Below the pieces are notes generated by a model. The model was not told the DNA's origin. It saw only the letters and a program-made list of their open reading frames with translations, and did no database searches. Shown here in pieces: positions 25,429-61,941 of a stretch of DNA of 64,000 nt; position 1 is the first letter of the stretch, and each line of letters opens with the position of its first letter. The stretch spans positions 1-64,000 of the forward strand of contig CALUUK010000008.1 in NCBI GenBank assembly GCA_944323955.1, read 5' to 3'. Position numbers and translations under genes: made by a program. Source of the stretch: Candidatus Gastranaerophilales bacterium (GTDB lineage Bacteria; Cyanobacteriota; Vampirovibrionia; Gastranaerophilales; Gastranaerophilaceae).

Positions 25429-25770
25429 CTATAAATTTTTACGCTGCTTTATTTCTGCAATTTTTGCTCTGATATCATCGGCAGCCTTTAACTCTATTCT
25501 TCTGACCTCATTTAGTTTTTCCTGAGTTATTTCAACTGCAAAATCATTATTTATATTAGTCCCGATCATTTCGTCTTTAACTTTTTGAACATCTTGTTCA
25601 CACTTGGTCAAAACAGATAAAACTTCATTTATTTCATCTTCCGAAAACCCTATGCTTTGCAAACTCTGAGCCATATTTTTCTTTATTTTTGAACGCTCTT
25701 CATTAATTTCTTCAGTTTTATTATCAGGTAAAATACCGAGTTTTTTACCTATTTTTTTTATAATACCCAT
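25429..25770 (-). CDS. small helical protein of unknown function
   Basis: 113 residues from the ATG at 25770, with AAGGAG 8 bases upstream. The upstream start at 25803 lies in the preceding gene. It begins MGIIKKIGKKLGILPDNK, then long amphipathic helices rich in Glu/Lys (SFSEDEINEVLSVL type, EKLNEVRRIELKAADDIRAKI). The amphipathic basic N-terminus may bind membranes. Its ATG overlaps the stop of the radical SAM gene (TAATG), so the two are translationally coupled. Confidence 0.6.
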   Translation of the reverse strand: MGIIKKIGKKLGILPDNKTEEINEERSKIKKNMAQSLQSIGFSEDEINEVLSVLTKCEQDVQKVKDEMIGTNINNDFAVEITQEKLNEVRRIELKAADDIRAKIAEIKQRKNL

Positions 25771-27605
25771 TATAAAGACTCCTTCTCGGAAATTATAGCA
25801 CAATTTTTAACCCACTCACTTCCGTATTTTGCAATATACAGAAATAACCATTCTCTATAGCGAAGATACATCCAAAGAGGATTATTGTATGCTTTGGAAC
25901 ACTCTTTTAAACAGTGTTCCAAAACTTCTTTCATTTCACTGCTGTTCATACCTATGGAATCAAATTTTATATTCGGAGAAAATTCATCTTCTGCGGGATA
26001 AATTTTTGTAATACCGTACTTTTCAGGCTCTTTTGAAAGTTTTGCATGCCTGCCCATAGTAAATACGCTTCTGCCGTATGAATGTATAATATCATTATTT
26101 TCAGTAAGCATTTTAATCGTCTTCAATGCATCTTCTTTTGTTTCTGTCGGGAATCCAAAAAATATAAATGCAAAATTCCAAATACCCGAATCTTTTGAAT
26201 TTTTTAATATTTCAAATCTTTTATTTAAATCTATACCTTTATTTATAAGTTTTAAAACATCGTCAGAACCGGATTCCAATCCCCATAATATCATTTGAAG
26301 CCCGTTTTTATGTGCATTAAAGAGTATTTCTTTTGAAAAATCAGTTTCCAATCTGGCATCAATAAAGAAATTAACCTTTAAATTGTTTTCTTCTAATTTT
26401 AAAGACAGTTCTTTTAAATATGAAGGAGAAACAGATTCATCAATAAACTCAAAGTTAGTGATATTATACTTATCTTTAAATTCTTTAAATTCAGATATAA
26501 CTTTATCAGTTTTTTTCACATTAAAATTCTGACCGAAATCCTGATCGCAGAAACTGCATTTACCCCAATAACATCCTCTTGAAGATTGATAAGGAACAAC
26601 AACTTTAGGCGCATAATATTTAGAAAAGTCATAATCGGATAAGTCCATATTCGCCATATCATCAAGTTTTACAGGCTTCATTTTCTCATTTTGATAAACA
26701 CATCCATTATCAAAATATAAAAGGTTTGGCACGCTTTGTATAGGAATTATTCCGTTAACATATTTTGCAACCTCCACAATCGGACCTTCACCTTCTTCAA
26801 CAGAAACGGAATCTGCAAACAAGCGGAAAAACTCTTTATGTTTTTTTAGTTCATCTGCTATTCTGCCAAAAAAGTTTCCGCCGATATTAATATGCGCATT
26901 TGTTCTTTTTTTCAACATATAAGTTAAAGTTAACCCCGGAACAATCTGGCTTGAAGAATTGAGCGATATTGCAATAAAATCAGCTTGTTTCTCTATAATT
27001 TCATAAATGTGTCGCTCATAAAATTCATTAAATATATTTGAAGTACTATCTTCAACAAAATATTTTATATTATTATAATTAAACTTAAAAAACGGATTGG
27101 AAATACCTTCAAACTCTATTTTAGTCGGAGAATAGGGAAGAGAAACAATCTCTAATGCCCTATCTATCAAATTTATCGATTCAATAAGGTTTGACGGGAT
27201 GTAAAAGTCATCGTTTTTTATGGATTTTTTAGCATTCTCAATAAGCAAAGGAACAGCCGCCAAAGATTGCTCGTTTGCTTGCAGAAATTTTTTAATTTTA
27301 TTATATCTGAATAAAAATATCTGTTCTTCAAATGTGTAGTCGCTTGCTTTTTTATCTACAGAAAAAACGCTAAGCAGATTTTTTTGCATTAATTCAAGCT
27401 CGCGCTTAGCCTTAGTTATAGACTTTTGCAAATTATCAAATGTCAAAATTTCATTAAAAAATTCAATGTTTAAATCTAAAGCCTGTGCATTAAACCCGTT
27501 AGATTTCAGCTGACCGACCAACTGAGGAAGCGCAAAATGAGGACTTATAGGCGTCCACTGAGGCGGAAAAATCAGAAGCATTTTTTTGTCTTTGATATCT
27601 GGCAT
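25770..27605 (-). CDS. cobalamin-binding-type radical SAM protein, CX4CX2C
   Basis: 611 residues. An N-terminal B12-binding-like domain (MLLIFPPQWTPISPHFALPQLVGQLKSNGF) has a long helical insertion (about residues 55-165). It is followed by the second half of the Rossmann-like fold and the radical SAM core. The cluster motif is CYWGKCSFC, that is four rather than three residues between the first two cysteines. Further core elements are FEFIDESVSP, LWGLESGSDDVLKLINKG and FIFFGFPTETKEDA. The C-terminal region (about 500-611) is helical. The family acts on lipids, bacteriochlorophyll-like rings or peptides. The product is unknown. It lies upstream of a corrinoid-uptake operon on the same strand. 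Confidence 0.82.
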   Translation of the reverse strand: MPDIKDKKMLLIFPPQWTPISPHFALPQLVGQLKSNGFNAQALDLNIEFFNEILTFDNLQKSITKAKRELELMQKNLLSVFSVDKKASDYTFEEQIFLFRYNKIKKFLQANEQSLAAVPLLIENAKKSIKNDDFYIPSNLIESINLIDRALEIVSLPYSPTKIEFEGISNPFFKFNYNNIKYFVEDSTSNIFNEFYERHIYEIIEKQADFIAISLNSSSQIVPGLTLTYMLKKRTNAHINIGGNFFGRIADELKKHKEFFRLFADSVSVEEGEGPIVEVAKYVNGIIPIQSVPNLLYFDNGCVYQNEKMKPVKLDDMANMDLSDYDFSKYYAPKVVVPYQSSRGCYWGKCSFCDQDFGQNFNVKKTDKVISEFKEFKDKYNITNFEFIDESVSPSYLKELSLKLEENNLKVNFFIDARLETDFSKEILFNAHKNGLQMILWGLESGSDDVLKLINKGIDLNKRFEILKNSKDSGIWNFAFIFFGFPTETKEDALKTIKMLTENNDIIHSYGRSVFTMGRHAKLSKEPEKYGITKIYPAEDEFSPNIKFDSIGMNSSEMKEVLEHCLKECSKAYNNPLWMYLRYREWLFLYIAKYGSEWVKNCAIISEKESL

Positions 27606-27761
27606 TTACATAATATCTCATATTTACAAGTATTTGACAACCATTTTTAATATTCAACATATTAAGAAATGTATACTTTATTAAAAAATATAGCATTTTT
27701 ATATACAAAAAAAAACTTTATTTATACAAGCGGGGAATTTTTATTTATTAGGAGAGAAAAA

Positions 27762-28562
27762 ATGACAGTCAACGCAGCAGGACAAATAACATATAATGAA
27801 TTTGTACAGGAATTACAGCAAAACGGATATAGAACAACAAGTTTAGGTGCAAATGAAACAAATTTTGAACAATACGGAAATGCACTTTCAGGGAATTTAA
27901 AAAAGCAATTAATGGATAGTTTTGACTGTGAACAGGACTATCAGCTTCAATCACAAATTGCAAGTTTATATAACAGCAATAAAAGTGTAATTAACAGCGG
28001 AGACTTTATTAACTCATTAAAAAATATGGGATTAAATGTAAATGTTTCATATCAGGAAACAAGCTACATTTCAGATTACAAAGCAGGAAATACATCAGGA
28101 GCAGCAGGTAACGGTGCTATAGCAATTTACACAATTGCAGACAGCAAAGGCGGCGAAATAAAAATCGCAGATGCAAACGGTAACGGCGCTCTTGAAGTAG
28201 AAGAAATTTTTATGAATCAGATTTTAGGTGATATTACGCACGAAATCACAAGCGCACCCGCTGCAAATAATGCACAAGCTTCAAATTCTGCTTCAAATGC
28301 TGTTTCAAACAGTGTTTCCGAAACAGAATACACAAATAATATGGAAAGCGAAAAAGAAGAAGAAATAAAAAATCAGGTCAGTCAGGATAAATTTAATAAA
28401 GAAGTTGAAAAAAATCTAAAGGCAGGCGCTTCTATCTTCACAGCTACAACAATTGCAGAACTCGACTTAGATGTTTCAGATATGACATATACAGGAACAT
28501 ATTTGGAAGAAATTGAAGAACAGAAGAAAAAAGAAGAAGAAAAACAACAAAAAGCAGCTTAA
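27762..28562 (+). CDS. EF-hand-containing protein
   Basis: 266 residues from the ATG at 27762 (AGGAGAG 7 bases upstream; earlier in-frame starts lack a ribosome site). It carries one textbook EF-hand loop, DANGNGALEVEE, with Asp, Asn, Asn, Glu and Glu at positions 1, 3, 5, 9 and 12, so calcium binding is likely. Before it is a Ser/Gly-rich segment and after it an Ala/Ser/Asn-rich linker. The C-terminus is a Glu/Lys-rich helix. No signal peptide. The short gene that follows 17 bases later is probably co-transcribed. No family recognised beyond the EF-hand. Confidence 0.65.
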   Translation: MTVNAAGQITYNEFVQELQQNGYRTTSLGANETNFEQYGNALSGNLKKQLMDSFDCEQDYQLQSQIASLYNSNKSVINSGDFINSLKNMGLNVNVSYQETSYISDYKAGNTSGAAGNGAIAIYTIADSKGGEIKIADANGNGALEVEEIFMNQILGDITHEITSAPAANNAQASNSASNAVSNSVSETEYTNNMESEKEEEIKNQVSQDKFNKEVEKNLKAGASIFTATTIAELDLDVSDMTYTGTYLEEIEEQKKKEEEKQQKAA

Positions 28563-28579: not shown

Positions 28580-28732
28580 ATGAACAACAATTTAACAAAT
28601 GATAAAATCACAATCAAAATAGGCATTTCAGGAAACGGAATATCCGGTAACGGATTATCAGGTAACGAATACAGTGACTTCAATTTTATCGAAAATGAAA
28701 TAGACAGTATACTGGAAGATATCAAATCATAA
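28580..28732 (+). CDS. 50-residue peptide with SGN repeats
   Basis: A short ORF with GAGGA 4 bases before the ATG. It contains three tandem pentapeptides, ISGNG, ISGNG and LSGNE, in residues about 16-30, between an Asn-rich start and an acidic helical end (IENEIDSILEDIKS). It is followed at once by a strong terminator, so it is the last gene of the EF-hand unit. The repeats resemble short beta-solenoid or Gly-rich precursor sequences. The function is unknown. Confidence 0.55.
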   Translation: MNNNLTNDKITIKIGISGNGISGNGLSGNEYSDFNFIENEIDSILEDIKS

Positions 28733-28764: not shown

Positions 28765-29115
28765 TTATTTAATTTTGTCCTTTTGTCCGAGGTTACTTAT
28801 CATAGGAGCAAATATTGCCAATAATAATGAGCCTAAAAGTGCACTCCAAAAGCCTTCTATTTCAATTCCGGGAGCAATCTTTCCCGCAAGAAGAAATAAA
28901 AGAGCATTAACAACAAGGCTGAATAAACCGAGTGTTAAAAAATTTACAGGCATGGAAATAAAATCAACCAGAGGTCTTATAAATGTATTGATTAAAGCAA
29001 TGACAACAACCACAATCAGTGCGGATACAAAGTTTGATACTGTTATTCCGGGTATTAACCATGCAATAAACATAATCAAAAGGGCAGATAACACCCACCT
29101 TATAATAACATTCAT
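28765..29115 (-). CDS. phage-holin-family (superfamily IV) small membrane protein
   Basis: 116 residues with four hydrophobic helices. The conserved VVVVIALINTFIRPLVDFISMPVNFLTLGLFSLVVNALLFLLAG pattern marks the widespread Phage_holin_4_2 family. Despite the name, these are chromosomal proteins in many bacteria, and no other phage gene is near. Function unproven. It stands alone between two terminator or intergenic regions. Confidence 0.85.
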   Translation of the reverse strand: MNVIIRWVLSALLIMFIAWLIPGITVSNFVSALIVVVVIALINTFIRPLVDFISMPVNFLTLGLFSLVVNALLFLLAGKIAPGIEIEGFWSALLGSLLLAIFAPMISNLGQKDKIK

Positions 29116-29188: not shown

Positions 29189-30166
29189 TTAGCGTGATTT
29201 TAATATATCGGAAACAATAACGCCTCTGTCTATGAGTTCAACATTCAATCCATACTCTTTTATTTTATCAAAGGTAAATTGAACAATTTCAAACAAACTA
29301 TCGGGCAAATGTTCTGAGTTCTTGTTATACCACATCATTTCAATATCAAAAGCAAGATATTTGACGCCTGCTGAAATCGATTTTTCAATCCAAGCATTAA
29401 TTTCTTCTTTTGTATCGTTTACCTCCGGAATCAAAATAAACTTTGTTTTCACACAATCATTAACAGGCTGTACACGGGCATATTTTTCAATATTTTCCCA
29501 AACCTTATCATAGAAATCAAACCGTTTAACTTTAATAAACATATCCTTCGTTCCTGAATCAACAGAAACAACGATATTTACCTTTCCCTCTTTTATTCCT
29601 TTTTCAACAACATCACTGTATTTTGTAGCATTGGTTAATACACGTATACTCGAAAGCCCATTATCAAGAAACAATTTAATTAAATCATCAAATTCCGGAG
29701 CCATGCAAGGCTCGCCCCCCGCAATTGTAATATGCCCTCCTTTTCTTAAATATCCCCCGGCAGCTAAATCTTTCACGGCCGGATACACATTATACTGTGT
29801 TTGATGAGGTTTATCTTCGTCGTTAAGCCAGCAATATATACAGTGTTCATTACAAACCGTCCAATTATTAAAATTGATATAAGAAATATAATCGTCATTA
29901 TCCCATTCTTTTTCTTCCAGATAAATACAATTCCTGCACTCGGGTATTATATTCCCTTTGCGCATCTGTTTTCTGTATTCCCGTTTAATTTTAAAGAATT
30001 CTCTCCAGTTTGGAATTTCTCCTGAATAATTTTCTATAAGTTTTTTATATCCTTTATCCGTAGGCGGTATCCTGCAGCAAAAATTTATACTGTCAGTAAA
30101 AAAATCTATACCATGCTCTATTAAATTACAACTTAAATATTTCTTTTTTTTACCGAAAAAAAACAT
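29189..30166 (-). CDS. radical SAM protein with N-terminal cysteine module
   Basis: 325 residues. The radical SAM motif CNEHCIYC lies at about residues 105-112, unusually late. The first 100 residues contain extra cysteines (SCNLIEH, NFCCRI, CRNC) and a NYSGEIPNWREFF segment. HITIAGGEPCMAPEF is the SAM-binding GGE. It is clearly paralogous to the protein at 45662, which has the same N-terminal layout. The N-terminal cysteines may ligate an auxiliary cluster that in SPASM enzymes would be C-terminal. Its ATG overlaps the recJ stop (TAATG). Substrate unknown. Confidence 0.85.
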   Translation of the reverse strand: MFFFGKKKKYLSCNLIEHGIDFFTDSINFCCRIPPTDKGYKKLIENYSGEIPNWREFFKIKREYRKQMRKGNIIPECRNCIYLEEKEWDNDDYISYINFNNWTVCNEHCIYCWLNDEDKPHQTQYNVYPAVKDLAAGGYLRKGGHITIAGGEPCMAPEFDDLIKLFLDNGLSSIRVLTNATKYSDVVEKGIKEGKVNIVVSVDSGTKDMFIKVKRFDFYDKVWENIEKYARVQPVNDCVKTKFILIPEVNDTKEEINAWIEKSISAGVKYLAFDIEMMWYNKNSEHLPDSLFEIVQFTFDKIKEYGLNVELIDRGVIVSDILKSR

Positions 30167-32565
30167 TATATCTCCCTCAATAAAAACTCTTTTATTTCAT
30201 CAACCGTTGAATTTAAATAAAATCCCTTAAACTCGTTAATTTCACGGATCTGATCTTCTATTATTGAATATGAGGAACTTTGCATTATTTTTGAATACTC
30301 AATAGGATGTAATGACTTTATTTTATAACTGTTTTCAGAGGTTTGAACAAATTGTGTCATTCCGGCTTCTTCAAACATGGATAAAAGGTTTGCAATAGTT
30401 TCAATATCTATACATAATGCTTTTGCTAACTTTTCGGTTTCGATGTTACCGTTAAGGTTATTCAGCGAATATTTCAACATTCCGGAAAGCGTCGATATTA
30501 AAGTTTTCAGAGAAATCTCCGCAGAAAAAAAATTCATAAGATGAATTATCTTTGCACCTGTTTTTTTGATTATATTAACAAAATCCGTTTTATTAACAGG
30601 CGGCTCAAAAAACATTAACTGCTCAATTCCAAATGGAATATCAGAACATGAAAAACATATTTTCAATGCTGTTTCATTTTGCTCCAGCTGTTTTATAAGT
30701 TTTGTGTTATATGCATAAATACCCGTTCTTTTTCGACTTGAAGCAACGAAATCCAATACCTGCGGCAGAATATTAAATTTATTTCTATGATCGAGTATTT
30801 TAATTTGTATACCATCATCTCTTAATAATTCCGAATGTATATCTGAAACCACATACTGAATTTTTTTGTTTCCGTTAAATTCATTTAATTGCGGATAAAA
30901 TAAAATATCGAATTCACTGTTTTGAGGCAGATTAAAGTCGGGAGTATTCCATTTTATACATTCAACATTAACCCCGTTTTTCTCCGCGGATATTTTAAGA
31001 TGATTATTTTGCTGCCCCATTAATTTATAATCTTTTAAAGAAAGATGTTCAGCTATAAATAAGGGGGCTTCATTTCCCGAGCCAAAAGGCTGCAATCGGG
31101 CAATATTCTCTATTGTTTTCTCGCTTATTTCTTCGGGCTCGACAATCATATCAGCATATAAATTAATATTTGAAAAATCAATTTCTTCCGTCACTTCATC
31201 TATTGTCTTAACCAATAAAGATTTGAACACGGCAAATTTAATTTTATTTTCATCAAAAGAAAATCCTGCAGCCATCTTGTGTCCGCCAAACCCCGCAAAT
31301 AAGTCTTTATGATGGGAAAGAACATCAAATATATTTATCTGCGGAATACTTCGGCAAGAACAGCGTATAATATTATCATTTATTGAATCTTTAGTCATTA
31401 AAAAAACGGGTTTATTATAAGTTTCCGCTAATTTAGAGGCAACTATACCGATTATTCCGACATGCCAATTGTCATTTAAAAGTATAATACTTTTTTCATT
31501 AGACGATTTATCCTCTTCATACATTTCTTTTGCCTGTTTAAAGGTTTCATCACATAATTGCTGTCTTAAAGAATTTAAATCATTTAAATTTTTAACTCCC
31601 GTTTCAATTTCACACTCATCCTGAGAAATTAAAACATTCAAAGCAGTATGAGGTGCATCAAGTCTGCCGGCTGCATTTATTCTGGGAACAATACCGAAAG
31701 CTACAGTCTCCGACGTTAAATTAACTTTATCCGTATATCCTGCAGACTCAATTAACTTTTGAACACCATTATGCCTGCCGTTTTTGATAAGTTCAAGACC
31801 CATTGCAACAAGACTTCTGTTCTCACCGATAAGTTCAACAACATCACCTACCGTACCAATGGCAGCAAGAGGAAGAATTTCATGCACAAAACTTTCCAAA
31901 TTATACATTTCAAGCAATTTACAGCATAACTTAAATGCCACACCGACTCCTGCCAAATAACTCAAACTTTGGAGTTCTTCCACTGTCAAATCGGAGATCA
32001 AAGAATTCCGAGCTTTGGGATTAAGTATTGCATAAGCCTCGGGTAAAACTTCCGGCGCTTCATGGTGATCCGTAATTATAACATCAGATTTAAATCCGTT
32101 TGCAAATTTTACCTCCTGCAAATTTGAAATACCGCAGTCTACGGTTATAATAAGTTTTGATTTTCTTTTTGCAATGATATTAACAAGAGCTTTAGTATTA
32201 AGACCGTGGCTTTCGATTGCTCTGTCCGGAAGATAATAATCGACTTTTGCACCTATTTTTAGCAGAGTTAAATATAAAATCGCGGTTGAAGTAATTCCGT
32301 CAGCATCAAAATCACCGTATACAGTAATGTTTTCCTGCAAGTCTACGGCACTCTTTATTCTCTCTGCCGCCTTTTCCATATCCGTAAAAACATCGGGAGA
32401 AACCAATTTTACTTTTAACGGATTTAAAAAAGCCTGAGCTTTTTCTTTTGTATCTATACCGCGGTTTTTCAATAAAACAGCAAGTATCCTGTCAGAAGAA
32501 CAAAAATCAATAAAATCTTTGTCAGGTTCTGAATTTTTAGCAAGCCATGTTCTTTTAACACGCAT
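30166..32565 (-). CDS. recJ: single-stranded-DNA exonuclease RecJ
   Basis: 799 residues, the long RecJ type found outside gamma-proteobacteria. DHH phosphoesterase motifs are VYGDFDADGITST, ITVDCGIS, ITDHHEAPEVLPEA and the DHHA1 motif FAGFGGHKMAAGFSF. The OB-fold domain follows (about 450-570), and an additional ~220-residue C-terminal region contains a winged-helix-like end. It degrades single-stranded DNA 5' to 3' in recombination and mismatch repair. Two bases separate it from the upstream duplicated-repeat protein, and a radical SAM gene overlaps its end. Confidence 0.93.
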   Translation of the reverse strand: MRVKRTWLAKNSEPDKDFIDFCSSDRILAVLLKNRGIDTKEKAQAFLNPLKVKLVSPDVFTDMEKAAERIKSAVDLQENITVYGDFDADGITSTAILYLTLLKIGAKVDYYLPDRAIESHGLNTKALVNIIAKRKSKLIITVDCGISNLQEVKFANGFKSDVIITDHHEAPEVLPEAYAILNPKARNSLISDLTVEELQSLSYLAGVGVAFKLCCKLLEMYNLESFVHEILPLAAIGTVGDVVELIGENRSLVAMGLELIKNGRHNGVQKLIESAGYTDKVNLTSETVAFGIVPRINAAGRLDAPHTALNVLISQDECEIETGVKNLNDLNSLRQQLCDETFKQAKEMYEEDKSSNEKSIILLNDNWHVGIIGIVASKLAETYNKPVFLMTKDSINDNIIRCSCRSIPQINIFDVLSHHKDLFAGFGGHKMAAGFSFDENKIKFAVFKSLLVKTIDEVTEEIDFSNINLYADMIVEPEEISEKTIENIARLQPFGSGNEAPLFIAEHLSLKDYKLMGQQNNHLKISAEKNGVNVECIKWNTPDFNLPQNSEFDILFYPQLNEFNGNKKIQYVVSDIHSELLRDDGIQIKILDHRNKFNILPQVLDFVASSRKRTGIYAYNTKLIKQLEQNETALKICFSCSDIPFGIEQLMFFEPPVNKTDFVNIIKKTGAKIIHLMNFFSAEISLKTLISTLSGMLKYSLNNLNGNIETEKLAKALCIDIETIANLLSMFEEAGMTQFVQTSENSYKIKSLHPIEYSKIMQSSSYSIIEDQIREINEFKGFYLNSTVDEIKEFLLREI

Positions 32566-45661: not shown

Positions 45662-46750
45662 ATGCCAAAATACAGAAGCTGTCACAGCATCGAAGGTGAG
45701 TTATTTTTTAACCACCTTAACAAAATAGGATACTGTTCAATGCTGACACCTCAAGGAGGTCAGCCCGTATTATATGAGAATTATACGGGTGAATTAATAG
45801 ATTGGGAAGAATTTTTTAGAAGAAGAGACAAAGATATTGATTTAATGAAAAACGGCTCTGAACCCGAATCTTGCAGAGATTGTCTCTGGATAAGAGAAAA
45901 TGATTGGGATGAAAGGAAAAAAGAATTTAAATATATTTTGCTCAACATCTGGGTAAAATGCAATTTAAAGTGTATTTATTGTTCAAACCATAAAGATACG
46001 TATGTATCAGAAAATACAAAACCTTATAATATAGTCCCCGTATTAAAAGATATGATAGAAAAAGGCTATATAACACAAAATACAAAAATAGATATAGCCG
46101 GCGGAGAATCGACATTAGATTGTAATTTTCATGAACTTATAAATCTGTTAATTCAAAACGGAATAAAAAACATCAATCTTAATACAAATGCCACAAACTA
46201 TATTGAAGAGGTTAAAAACGGAATAGAAAAAGGATTTATATCAATAATTACTTCCGTTGATGCGGGAAGTTCAAGATATTTTAAATATATAAAAAAAGCT
46301 GATTTATATTCAGTGGTATGGAAGAATTTACAAAAATATGCACAGGCAAAGAAAATTGAAAATTCAAACTCGGTAAAAGCAAAATATATCATTATTCCTG
46401 ACGTAAATGATAATAAAGCACAAATACGAAAATTTATATTAAAAGCAAAAAAATCCGGCGTTCAAGGAGTAATATGCAGCACAGACTTACATTGGATTTT
46501 GCATAATCCCGATGATAAAAAAACAATGCTAAAAACAATTAATCTCACAAAATATTTTATAAATATTTGTTCTCTAATCGGCATAGATTGGCAGATTTGG
46601 GCACACATTGAAGACCTTATAAAAAGATATAATTTAATTGAACCTGAAAACAAAATTGATATTGATTTTATCTATAAAAAGCAGCCGAATGAAAATAAGA
46701 AGAATAGTTTGCTGAAAATATTATTATATATTCAAAATAAATTAATATAA
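45662..46750 (+). CDS. radical SAM protein with N-terminal cysteine module (paralogue)
   Basis: 362 residues. Same layout as 29189: N-terminal cysteines (SCHSIEG, YCSM, SCRDC), an ENYTGELIDWEEFF segment, then the radical SAM motif CNLKCIYC (about 102-109), DIAGGESTLDC and FISIITSVDAGSS. The NYxGExxxWxEFF segment and the C-R-x-C pair are shared with the paralogue. A C-terminal basic tail of about 60 residues is unique. AAAAGGA about 11 bases before the ATG. Confidence 0.85.
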   Translation: MPKYRSCHSIEGELFFNHLNKIGYCSMLTPQGGQPVLYENYTGELIDWEEFFRRRDKDIDLMKNGSEPESCRDCLWIRENDWDERKKEFKYILLNIWVKCNLKCIYCSNHKDTYVSENTKPYNIVPVLKDMIEKGYITQNTKIDIAGGESTLDCNFHELINLLIQNGIKNINLNTNATNYIEEVKNGIEKGFISIITSVDAGSSRYFKYIKKADLYSVVWKNLQKYAQAKKIENSNSVKAKYIIIPDVNDNKAQIRKFILKAKKSGVQGVICSTDLHWILHNPDDKKTMLKTINLTKYFINICSLIGIDWQIWAHIEDLIKRYNLIEPENKIDIDFIYKKQPNENKKNSLLKILLYIQNKLI

Positions 46751-60696: not shown

Positions 60697-61941
60697 ATGA
60701 AAAATTTTAAGAGAATTTTAGCGGTTATCATTGTTATATTCTGTCTTGGATTGATAATTGAAGCAGGCTCTTATTTATGGCAGTCAAAAAGACTTGTTGA
60801 TCAAGGATATCGATTTGCAAATAATGCAAAAAAACCTCCTTATCCCACAACAATGATTTCCTTTTCGGAAAATTATTTTAAACACCTTGACAAAGAACGA
60901 ATTGTGCAAAATATCACGGGAGAAAATCATAAATCTCCTTCAATATTACTATTCGGAGATGTTTATGCAAACAGTTATGATAACAGTGATAATACATTTG
61001 CCCATCAACTTTCAAAAGCGGCAAAACGTCCCGTTATAAACTTAGGAGAATCAGGATGGGGCATTTCTCAAATGTACTTCTTGCTTCAAAACGAGAAAGA
61101 CCTTGAAAAATTTAACCCTGAAACAATAATATTTTTCTATCATAATGATATGAAAAACAGATTAACTTCATTCTCATTCTACCCGCATCATTCATATTTA
61201 AATTTAAAATACAAACTTAAAAACGGTAAATTAACTGAAGATAAACCTGTTTCCATACCTGTTTACAGGTCTTATGCCGTTAGAAATATAGAAAGATTTT
61301 TAGGCTGGAGAAAAGCTGCCTCCAAAAATGCAAAAATACAACAAAAGAACTTTGATCTTATACAAACAATTTTTGAAGAATCAAAAAAACTCGCGCAGGA
61401 AAAATACCCGAATCTTAAAAAATTCATAATTTTAAGACTACCTGCCGACTGGGAAACACTGGAAAAATTAGAACAGTATAAGACTAATAATAAAATTGCC
61501 GAAATTGAATATAATATGTGGCAAAAGCTGAAAAAGGAAGGCTTTATCGTTATTGATATTACGGAATTAACCGATATAAATATAAACAAACAGGAAAACC
61601 ACAGTAAAGACAGCAGTTTAAAACCCGCAGTAACAGAAACATTCATGCCTGCATTTATAAAAGAAACTGAGCTTATAATCAATCAACCCGCAAAAAAGAA
61701 AAAAACTGCAGTAATAAAGAAAAAATCATCCGTAATAAAGAAAAAACCGGCCGTTTATAAAAATAAAGAAATAGAACAAAAATCAGGGCAGATAATAAAA
61801 AAAGAAACATTAGAAGAAGAGCAAAACATAAAAAGCTGCGATAATAATACGGATAAAACGGTACAAGAAAAAAAAGAAGGCAAATTTAAGCGTTTTATTT
61901 CAAAATTTAAACGTAACAAAGACGGGAATGTTGACAAATAA
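60697..61941 (+). CDS. SGNH-fold-like membrane-anchored protein, Ser lost
   Basis: 414 residues. One N-terminal membrane helix (7-26), then a domain that follows SGNH hydrolases: ILLFGDVYANSYDNSDNTF in place of GDSxxxG, VINLGESGWGISQMYFLL, and IIFFYHNDM where the Asn/Asp block lies. The catalytic Ser of the first block is Val here, so hydrolase activity is doubtful. The C-terminal ~90 residues are a Lys-rich, low-complexity tail with KKK repeats (KKKTAVIKKKSSVIKKKPAV). Probably co-transcribed with the hyd genes but functionally unrelated. Confidence 0.6.
   Translation: MKNFKRILAVIIVIFCLGLIIEAGSYLWQSKRLVDQGYRFANNAKKPPYPTTMISFSENYFKHLDKERIVQNITGENHKSPSILLFGDVYANSYDNSDNTFAHQLSKAAKRPVINLGESGWGISQMYFLLQNEKDLEKFNPETIIFFYHNDMKNRLTSFSFYPHHSYLNLKYKLKNGKLTEDKPVSIPVYRSYAVRNIERFLGWRKAASKNAKIQQKNFDLIQTIFEESKKLAQEKYPNLKKFIILRLPADWETLEKLEQYKTNNKIAEIEYNMWQKLKKEGFIVIDITELTDININKQENHSKDSSLKPAVTETFMPAFIKETELIINQPAKKKKTAVIKKKSSVIKKKPAVYKNKEIEQKSGQIIKKETLEEEQNIKSCDNNTDKTVQEKKEGKFKRFISKFKRNKDGNVDK

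Follow-up and report, generated by a model that had tools for sequence, protein, structure and literature searches.

A 42-member radical SAM family with an N-terminal four-cysteine module in the genome of a Candidatus Gastranaerophilales gut bacterium

Radical SAM enzymes catalyse unusual reactions at C-H bonds, and among SPASM/twitch enzymes in general fully ligated auxiliary clusters point to a redox role. The NCBIfam model N_Twi_rSAM (NF033640) places about 100 profile positions ahead of the core. Our literature search found no paper on an N-terminal SPASM or twitch domain, nor on the radical SAM expansion described below. The window analysed, a stretch of 64,000 nucleotides of contig CALUUK010000008.1 from a Candidatus Gastranaerophilales bacterium, carries two members of one radical SAM family, with the following features; gene calls here and throughout come from open reading frames and inspection by eye, unless a Pfam or NCBIfam match is cited.

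29189..30166, minus strand: radical SAM protein, first member and founder of the finding, 325 aa (open reading frame, Pfam, alignment, AlphaFold2 model)
29897..30142, minus strand: N-terminal four-Cys module of the first member, residues 9-90 (C13, C30, C77, C80)
29231..29884, minus strand: radical SAM core of the first member, residues 95-312 (C105, C109, C112; PF04055 at 3.3e-14)
45662..46750, plus strand: radical SAM protein of 362 aa, second member, flanked by nth and an aminotransferase gene
45668..45913, plus strand: N-terminal four-Cys module of the second member (C7, C25, C71, C74; from the alignment)
30166..32565, minus strand: recJ, upstream neighbour of the first member (27 of 30 ortholog loci)
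28765..29115, minus strand: small, YvlD-like (by eye) membrane protein, commonly found downstream of the first member (in 26 of 30 ortholog loci)

A sequence-only reading of the window had proposed that its two proteins share N-terminal cysteines, a CRxC motif and only then a CX3CX2C motif near residue 105, and this was confirmed by pairwise alignment, in which the two are homologues, 281 aa aligning at 36% identity (E 3e-59). They exceed the cut-off of Pfam Radical_SAM, and both run from C-x16/17-C through NYSGEIPNWREFF and NYTGELIDWEEFF, respectively, and then CRNC and CRDC, to CX3CX2C at residues 105-112 in the first member and 100-107 in the second. The NYxGExxxWxEFF segment is only partially conserved across the family. 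A D5_N match of a window protein (E 4e-4) was treated as chance, given that it lies below the gathering score and recurs in only 2 of 41 members. The first member's gene is directly downstream of recJ, whose end falls at or near the radical SAM start in most of the ortholog loci; a functional link is not implied by this conserved adjacency. No reciprocal best ortholog of the second member was found in the four genomes compared.

The extent of the family is not visible from one window. Using the first protein as query against the whole genome, 42 members were retrieved with strong scores (E below 1e-20), besides a single weak, partial match, so that the proposal of a family present twice holds within the window and gives way to 42 members genome-wide. 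Together they sum to 44 kb, which is 2.2% of the 1.96 Mb genome, where radical SAM matches number 85, roughly half of them from this family; the median identity between paralogues is 31%. PF04055 was matched by 41 of 41 members and, with the CX3CX2C motif and the fold, places the window proteins and their paralogues in the radical SAM superfamily.

Alignment of 41 members revealed 11 invariant columns (C13, C30, C77, C80, C105, C109, Y111, C112, G151, K214 and N250), seven of which are cysteines although mean column identity is 28%, which argues that the conservation of the cysteines is not due to chance. The spacing C-x(16-22)-C-x(37-49)-C-x2-C, followed after 23-35 residues by CX3CX2C, is kept in all 41 aligned members; C13, C30, C77 and C80 are also invariant in a 33-row alignment, and the 42nd member, which has a C-terminal MATE transporter fusion, has the same cysteines. 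AlphaFold2 modelling of the first member with 33 sequences gave a pLDDT of 90.2 and a pTM of 0.87, with an N-terminal part predicted as strand, short helix, hairpin, strand and long helix, followed by the CxxC. The nearest solved folds are all radical SAM enzymes (SuiB, PFL-activating enzyme, SkfB, BlsE, Mmp10, NifB and DesII), and the core aligned with SuiB at a VIA-align Z of 16.6. Modelled alone, the N-terminal 95 residues reached a pLDDT of 75 and retrieved no match in the PDB with a Z of 2 or more, which is no proof of a new fold. With fair confidence, the seven invariant cysteines would fit a SAM cluster together with a single auxiliary [4Fe-4S] cluster at the N-terminus, and the putative cluster-binding part likely precedes the barrel. 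An auxiliary cluster with four protein ligands would favour a redox role over direct substrate binding.

This layout had been described at the outset as an inverted domain order. A conserved cysteine module does precede the core, but the order is already known and the module is not assignable to SPASM or twitch. Precedents for an N-terminal auxiliary module are N_Twi_rSAM and four other radical SAM proteins of the same genome, in which Pfam SPASM lies at residues 4-73, ahead of the core. PF13186 was matched by 0 of 41 family members at E 0.1, whereas four neighbouring SPASM proteins match it at 7e-12 to 1e-14. That the members are divergent N_Twi_rSAM proteins with an N-terminal twitch domain, and otherwise ordinary, is possible but doubtful: the layout is the same, N_Twi-like proteins are frequent neighbours of members and there is a weak profile match with the core at profile position 100-106, but the two window proteins score 39.2 and 44.2 bits against a cut-off of 170, with the best stretch confined to the core. 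No place in the genome scores above that cut-off; in the N_Twi_rSAM matches that it does contain, N-termini align to profile positions 2-66 and cores to 108-310. By hhalign, the family's N-terminal profile gave a probability of only 1.1% against nine N_Twi-like proteins from the window's genome and related genomes, and of 98.4% (E 6e-15) against homologues from sister genera. An identity as viperin or MoaA was rejected, with NCBIfam scores far below the cut-offs (43.5 bits versus 180 and 53.8 versus 284, respectively). The family's N-terminus carries a four-Cys module that current domain libraries fail to recognise, and the family is therefore likely annotated merely as a generic radical SAM protein.

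Searching contigs with a profile built from the ortholog alignment placed orthologues of the first protein, at 65-77% identity, on 30 contigs, nearly all of which are titled Candidatus Gastranaerophilales and one of which, from Candidatus Avigastranaerophilus faecigallinarum, shares its match coordinates with genome G011 of the window's genus. Besides the window's own genome, 34 genomes of the same genus were compared, 31 of them with 5 to at least 38 family matches and three with none; at E 1e-15, no family match was present in 23 genomes that belong to other families within the order or class. Across a sample of the class, searched at E 1e-30, high copy numbers occurred in just two additional genera of Gastranaerophilaceae (18 and 10 in the genomes examined), and the remaining genera had either no homologue or one or two that were longer and more distantly related. 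The expansion is thus confined, among the draft assemblies compared, to the window's genus and two close genera of Gastranaerophilaceae.

Reciprocal best matches of the 42 members numbered 29 in genome G235, 14 in G025 and 15 in G355, the last from another genus. A quick tree search on 118 members from a few sampled genomes, rooted on the sister homologues, gave 17 duplication nodes spanning the window's genus and that of G355, and only two recent pairs within the window's genome; the copies are ancient, older than the genus. The first window protein had dN/dS values of 0.07-0.2 against 20 orthologues, with a median of 0.145 over 148 pairs with dS below 1.5, and is under purifying selection. 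From the duplication nodes before the genus split, the reciprocal matches and the low dN/dS, it follows that the members are kept, diverged enzymes. A recent burst or decaying repeats were ruled out by the age of the members and the dN/dS of the window copy. The family gave no phage match, viral contigs encoded no relative of it, and a plasmid origin was rejected, the sole plasmid match being a MoaA at 26%. The N-terminal module shows no detectable homology to known cluster domains, as represented by SPASM, N_Twi-like proteins and PDB folds. It is rather unlikely, on our estimate, that the family carries a new N-terminal Fe-S module and that its radiation produced some 40 enzymes in one small genome, each conserved in its own right and acting on a substrate of its own; if that were true, the organism would possess an extensive surface or signalling-molecule chemistry peculiar to itself.

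Most members in the window's genome are singletons or small groups among housekeeping genes. The copies had been read as dispersed with different neighbours, which stands for the two in the window and fails for others, as tandem groups of 3 to 5 also occur. Among 136 neighbours, the type that recurs most often is a further radical SAM gene, with 8 instances, of which four are SPASM-positive. On contig C9 (43441-52592; L029 7442-16593), nine radical SAM genes are consecutive, six of the family and three with an N-terminal Pfam SPASM. Separately, seven radical SAM matches stand in a row at 353791-363872 of contig C1 (partly in L035), adjoining the member at C1:364522, and those read are of the B12 type. 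A shared neighbour is kept in 23 of 29 orthologous pairs between genomes G000 and G235 and in 3 of 15 between G000 and G355; the radical SAM gene stays while its neighbours change between genera, and no partner therefore names the substrate. If each member modified a single target in trans, be it a specific protein, a tRNA or an rRNA, this would account for scattered single genes that have no partner, and the dispersal among housekeeping genes, the retention of the genes as neighbours change and the deep divergence of the paralogues are consistent with such a role. We nevertheless consider it improbable: several genomes of the genus, G032 and G008 among them, have no family members at all, so that no core RNA or protein function depends on the family.

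Similar weight is given to a role as peptide (RiPP) maturases with precursors encoded nearby or in trans, which seems unlikely. The peptide maturases SuiB and SkfB are among the best fold matches, in two genomes the window member and the gene of a GNG-repeat peptide are convergent neighbours, and in genome G009 another member sits two genes from such a peptide. However, members often overlap their neighbours or lie under 20 bp from them, and the check for small peptide genes common to the contexts yielded, in the 800-bp flanks and among the matches listed, only recurring small ORFs that are antisense shadows of other members. The window's genome also has just one copy of the GNG peptide gene for its 42 enzymes, and the occurrence of the peptide follows a B12-binding radical SAM gene (4 of 7 loci), not the N-terminal-Cys family.

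The GNG peptide itself, at window positions 28580-28732 (plus strand), is a 50-aa peptide with SGNGI/SGNGL repeats. It adjoins a gene for a B12-binding radical SAM protein (25770-27605, minus strand; TIGR03975-like at 122 bits, below the cut-off), and 27669-28562 (plus strand) is grouped with the two. The peptide is conserved, in the same block, in L069. Related small ORFs with 2-7 GNG pentapeptide repeats occur in other genomes of the genus, and the GNG DNA pattern was found in 11 of 41 genomes, some instances perhaps by chance; none of the peptides has a credible Pfam or NCBIfam match. The TIGR03975-like gene is beside the peptide in 4 of the 7 loci examined, and in L141 4435-7462 (genome G009) a single strand holds, one after another, a B12-radical SAM gene, a GNG peptide, a gene of 371 aa and an N-terminal-Cys family member. 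Peptide and B12-radical SAM gene look like a candidate new RiPP-type cassette, separate from the 42-member family.

The nearest homologues in sister genera lie in a different context: Glycos_transf_2 was found in 18 of 123 neighbouring proteins, together with NDP-sugar dehydratases and epimerases and polysaccharide pyruvyl transferases. Two of these homologues carry an N-terminal glycosyltransferase 2 region (Pfam-confirmed in L089, by sequence resemblance in the other), and others a C-terminal hexapeptide transferase; most of the expanded copies have neither such fusions nor a place in polysaccharide loci. The fusions, and the member-MATE fusion of the window's genome, are as follows.

L081 8568-10466, L083 8402-10264, L089 7265-9382 and L099 6595-8676: sister-genus radical SAM fusions with hexapeptide transferase or glycosyltransferase 2
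L023 9540-11819 (C4:87539-89818): member-MATE fusion

A 766-aa frame of the ortholog in G235 suggests that the MATE fusion is conserved, and several genomes, from two genera, have a MATE transporter either next to or joined to a member. In G235, a GDP-mannose 4,6-dehydratase gene is flanked by members, with DegT aminotransferase and GT2-like genes near; members adjoin GT2-like, GalE-like and MATE genes in G355, and a MATE gene and a DegT-like aminotransferase gene in G025 (in the last two genomes, genes without a Pfam citation were read by eye). Neighbourhoods in the window's genome itself give no support to a glycan-type substrate: only one of its 20 GT2 genes adjoins a member, glycosyltransferase 2 is absent from the 25 commonest families among 136 neighbours and, with neighbours not enriched, a glycan-locus explanation was rejected for this genome. 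A membrane-anchored SGNH/AlgX-like family has 6 copies in the genome (among them window 60697-61941, plus strand, L027 10611-11609 and L031 9373-10269), some of which, there and in related genomes, are near family members; as partners they were rejected, two of 6 within three genes of a member being too few. Proteins with N-terminal FxG motifs, picked by eye, were likewise dismissed as targets, as they also occur in sister genomes without the expansion.

Taking these data together, we tentatively favour, at close to an even call, a lineage-specific radical SAM family with an auxiliary N-terminal cluster and paralogue-specific, glycan-type substrates. The core cluster would cleave SAM to a 5'-deoxyadenosyl radical; the N-terminal cysteines, judging only from their conservation, would ligate one fully protein-ligated auxiliary [4Fe-4S] cluster, which may pass electrons to or from the substrate radical, as auxiliary clusters do in SPASM/twitch enzymes. 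Each paralogue may serve its own substrate and might work with enzymes encoded elsewhere. The substrates could, most likely, be sugars or glycan-linked cell-surface building blocks, a guess prompted by the context of the sister homologues and of a minority of the expanded copies, and the reactions might be, for example, dehydrogenation, epimerisation or deoxygenation.

A copy number this high is unusual for a 2 Mb genome, while the domain order has precedents. The presence of 42 old, diverged copies of one uncharacterised subfamily in a gut bacterium with a genome of this size implies many undiscovered reactions or substrates, and the copies amount to a ready-made set of natural variants in which the determinants of substrate choice can be sought.

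Compared with known systems, the family resembles N_Twi_rSAM in its Cys-bearing segment of about 100 residues before the core and in protein size, and genes of that type adjoin its members; it differs in scoring far below the cut-off, in an N-terminus that is not alignable and in having no conserved FGNI or EIWNG segment. With SPASM/twitch enzymes (PF13186; SuiB, SkfB, anSME and MoaA) it shares the radical SAM barrel, a likely auxiliary cluster and a place among the best PDB folds, but the well-studied enzymes have their auxiliary module after the core, whereas the family's N-terminal module has no PF13186 match. BlsE, a cytosylglucuronate decarboxylase, and DesII are radical SAM enzymes acting on sugar nucleotides and are among the closest folds, although identity is about 12-20% and no N-terminal four-Cys module of the family's kind is established in them. 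The sister-genus homologues of Gastranaerophilaceae (L081-L100) are homologous in both N-terminal module and core, but are longer, number one or two copies per genome and in many cases lie in polysaccharide loci or are fused to a glycosyltransferase or hexapeptide transferase.
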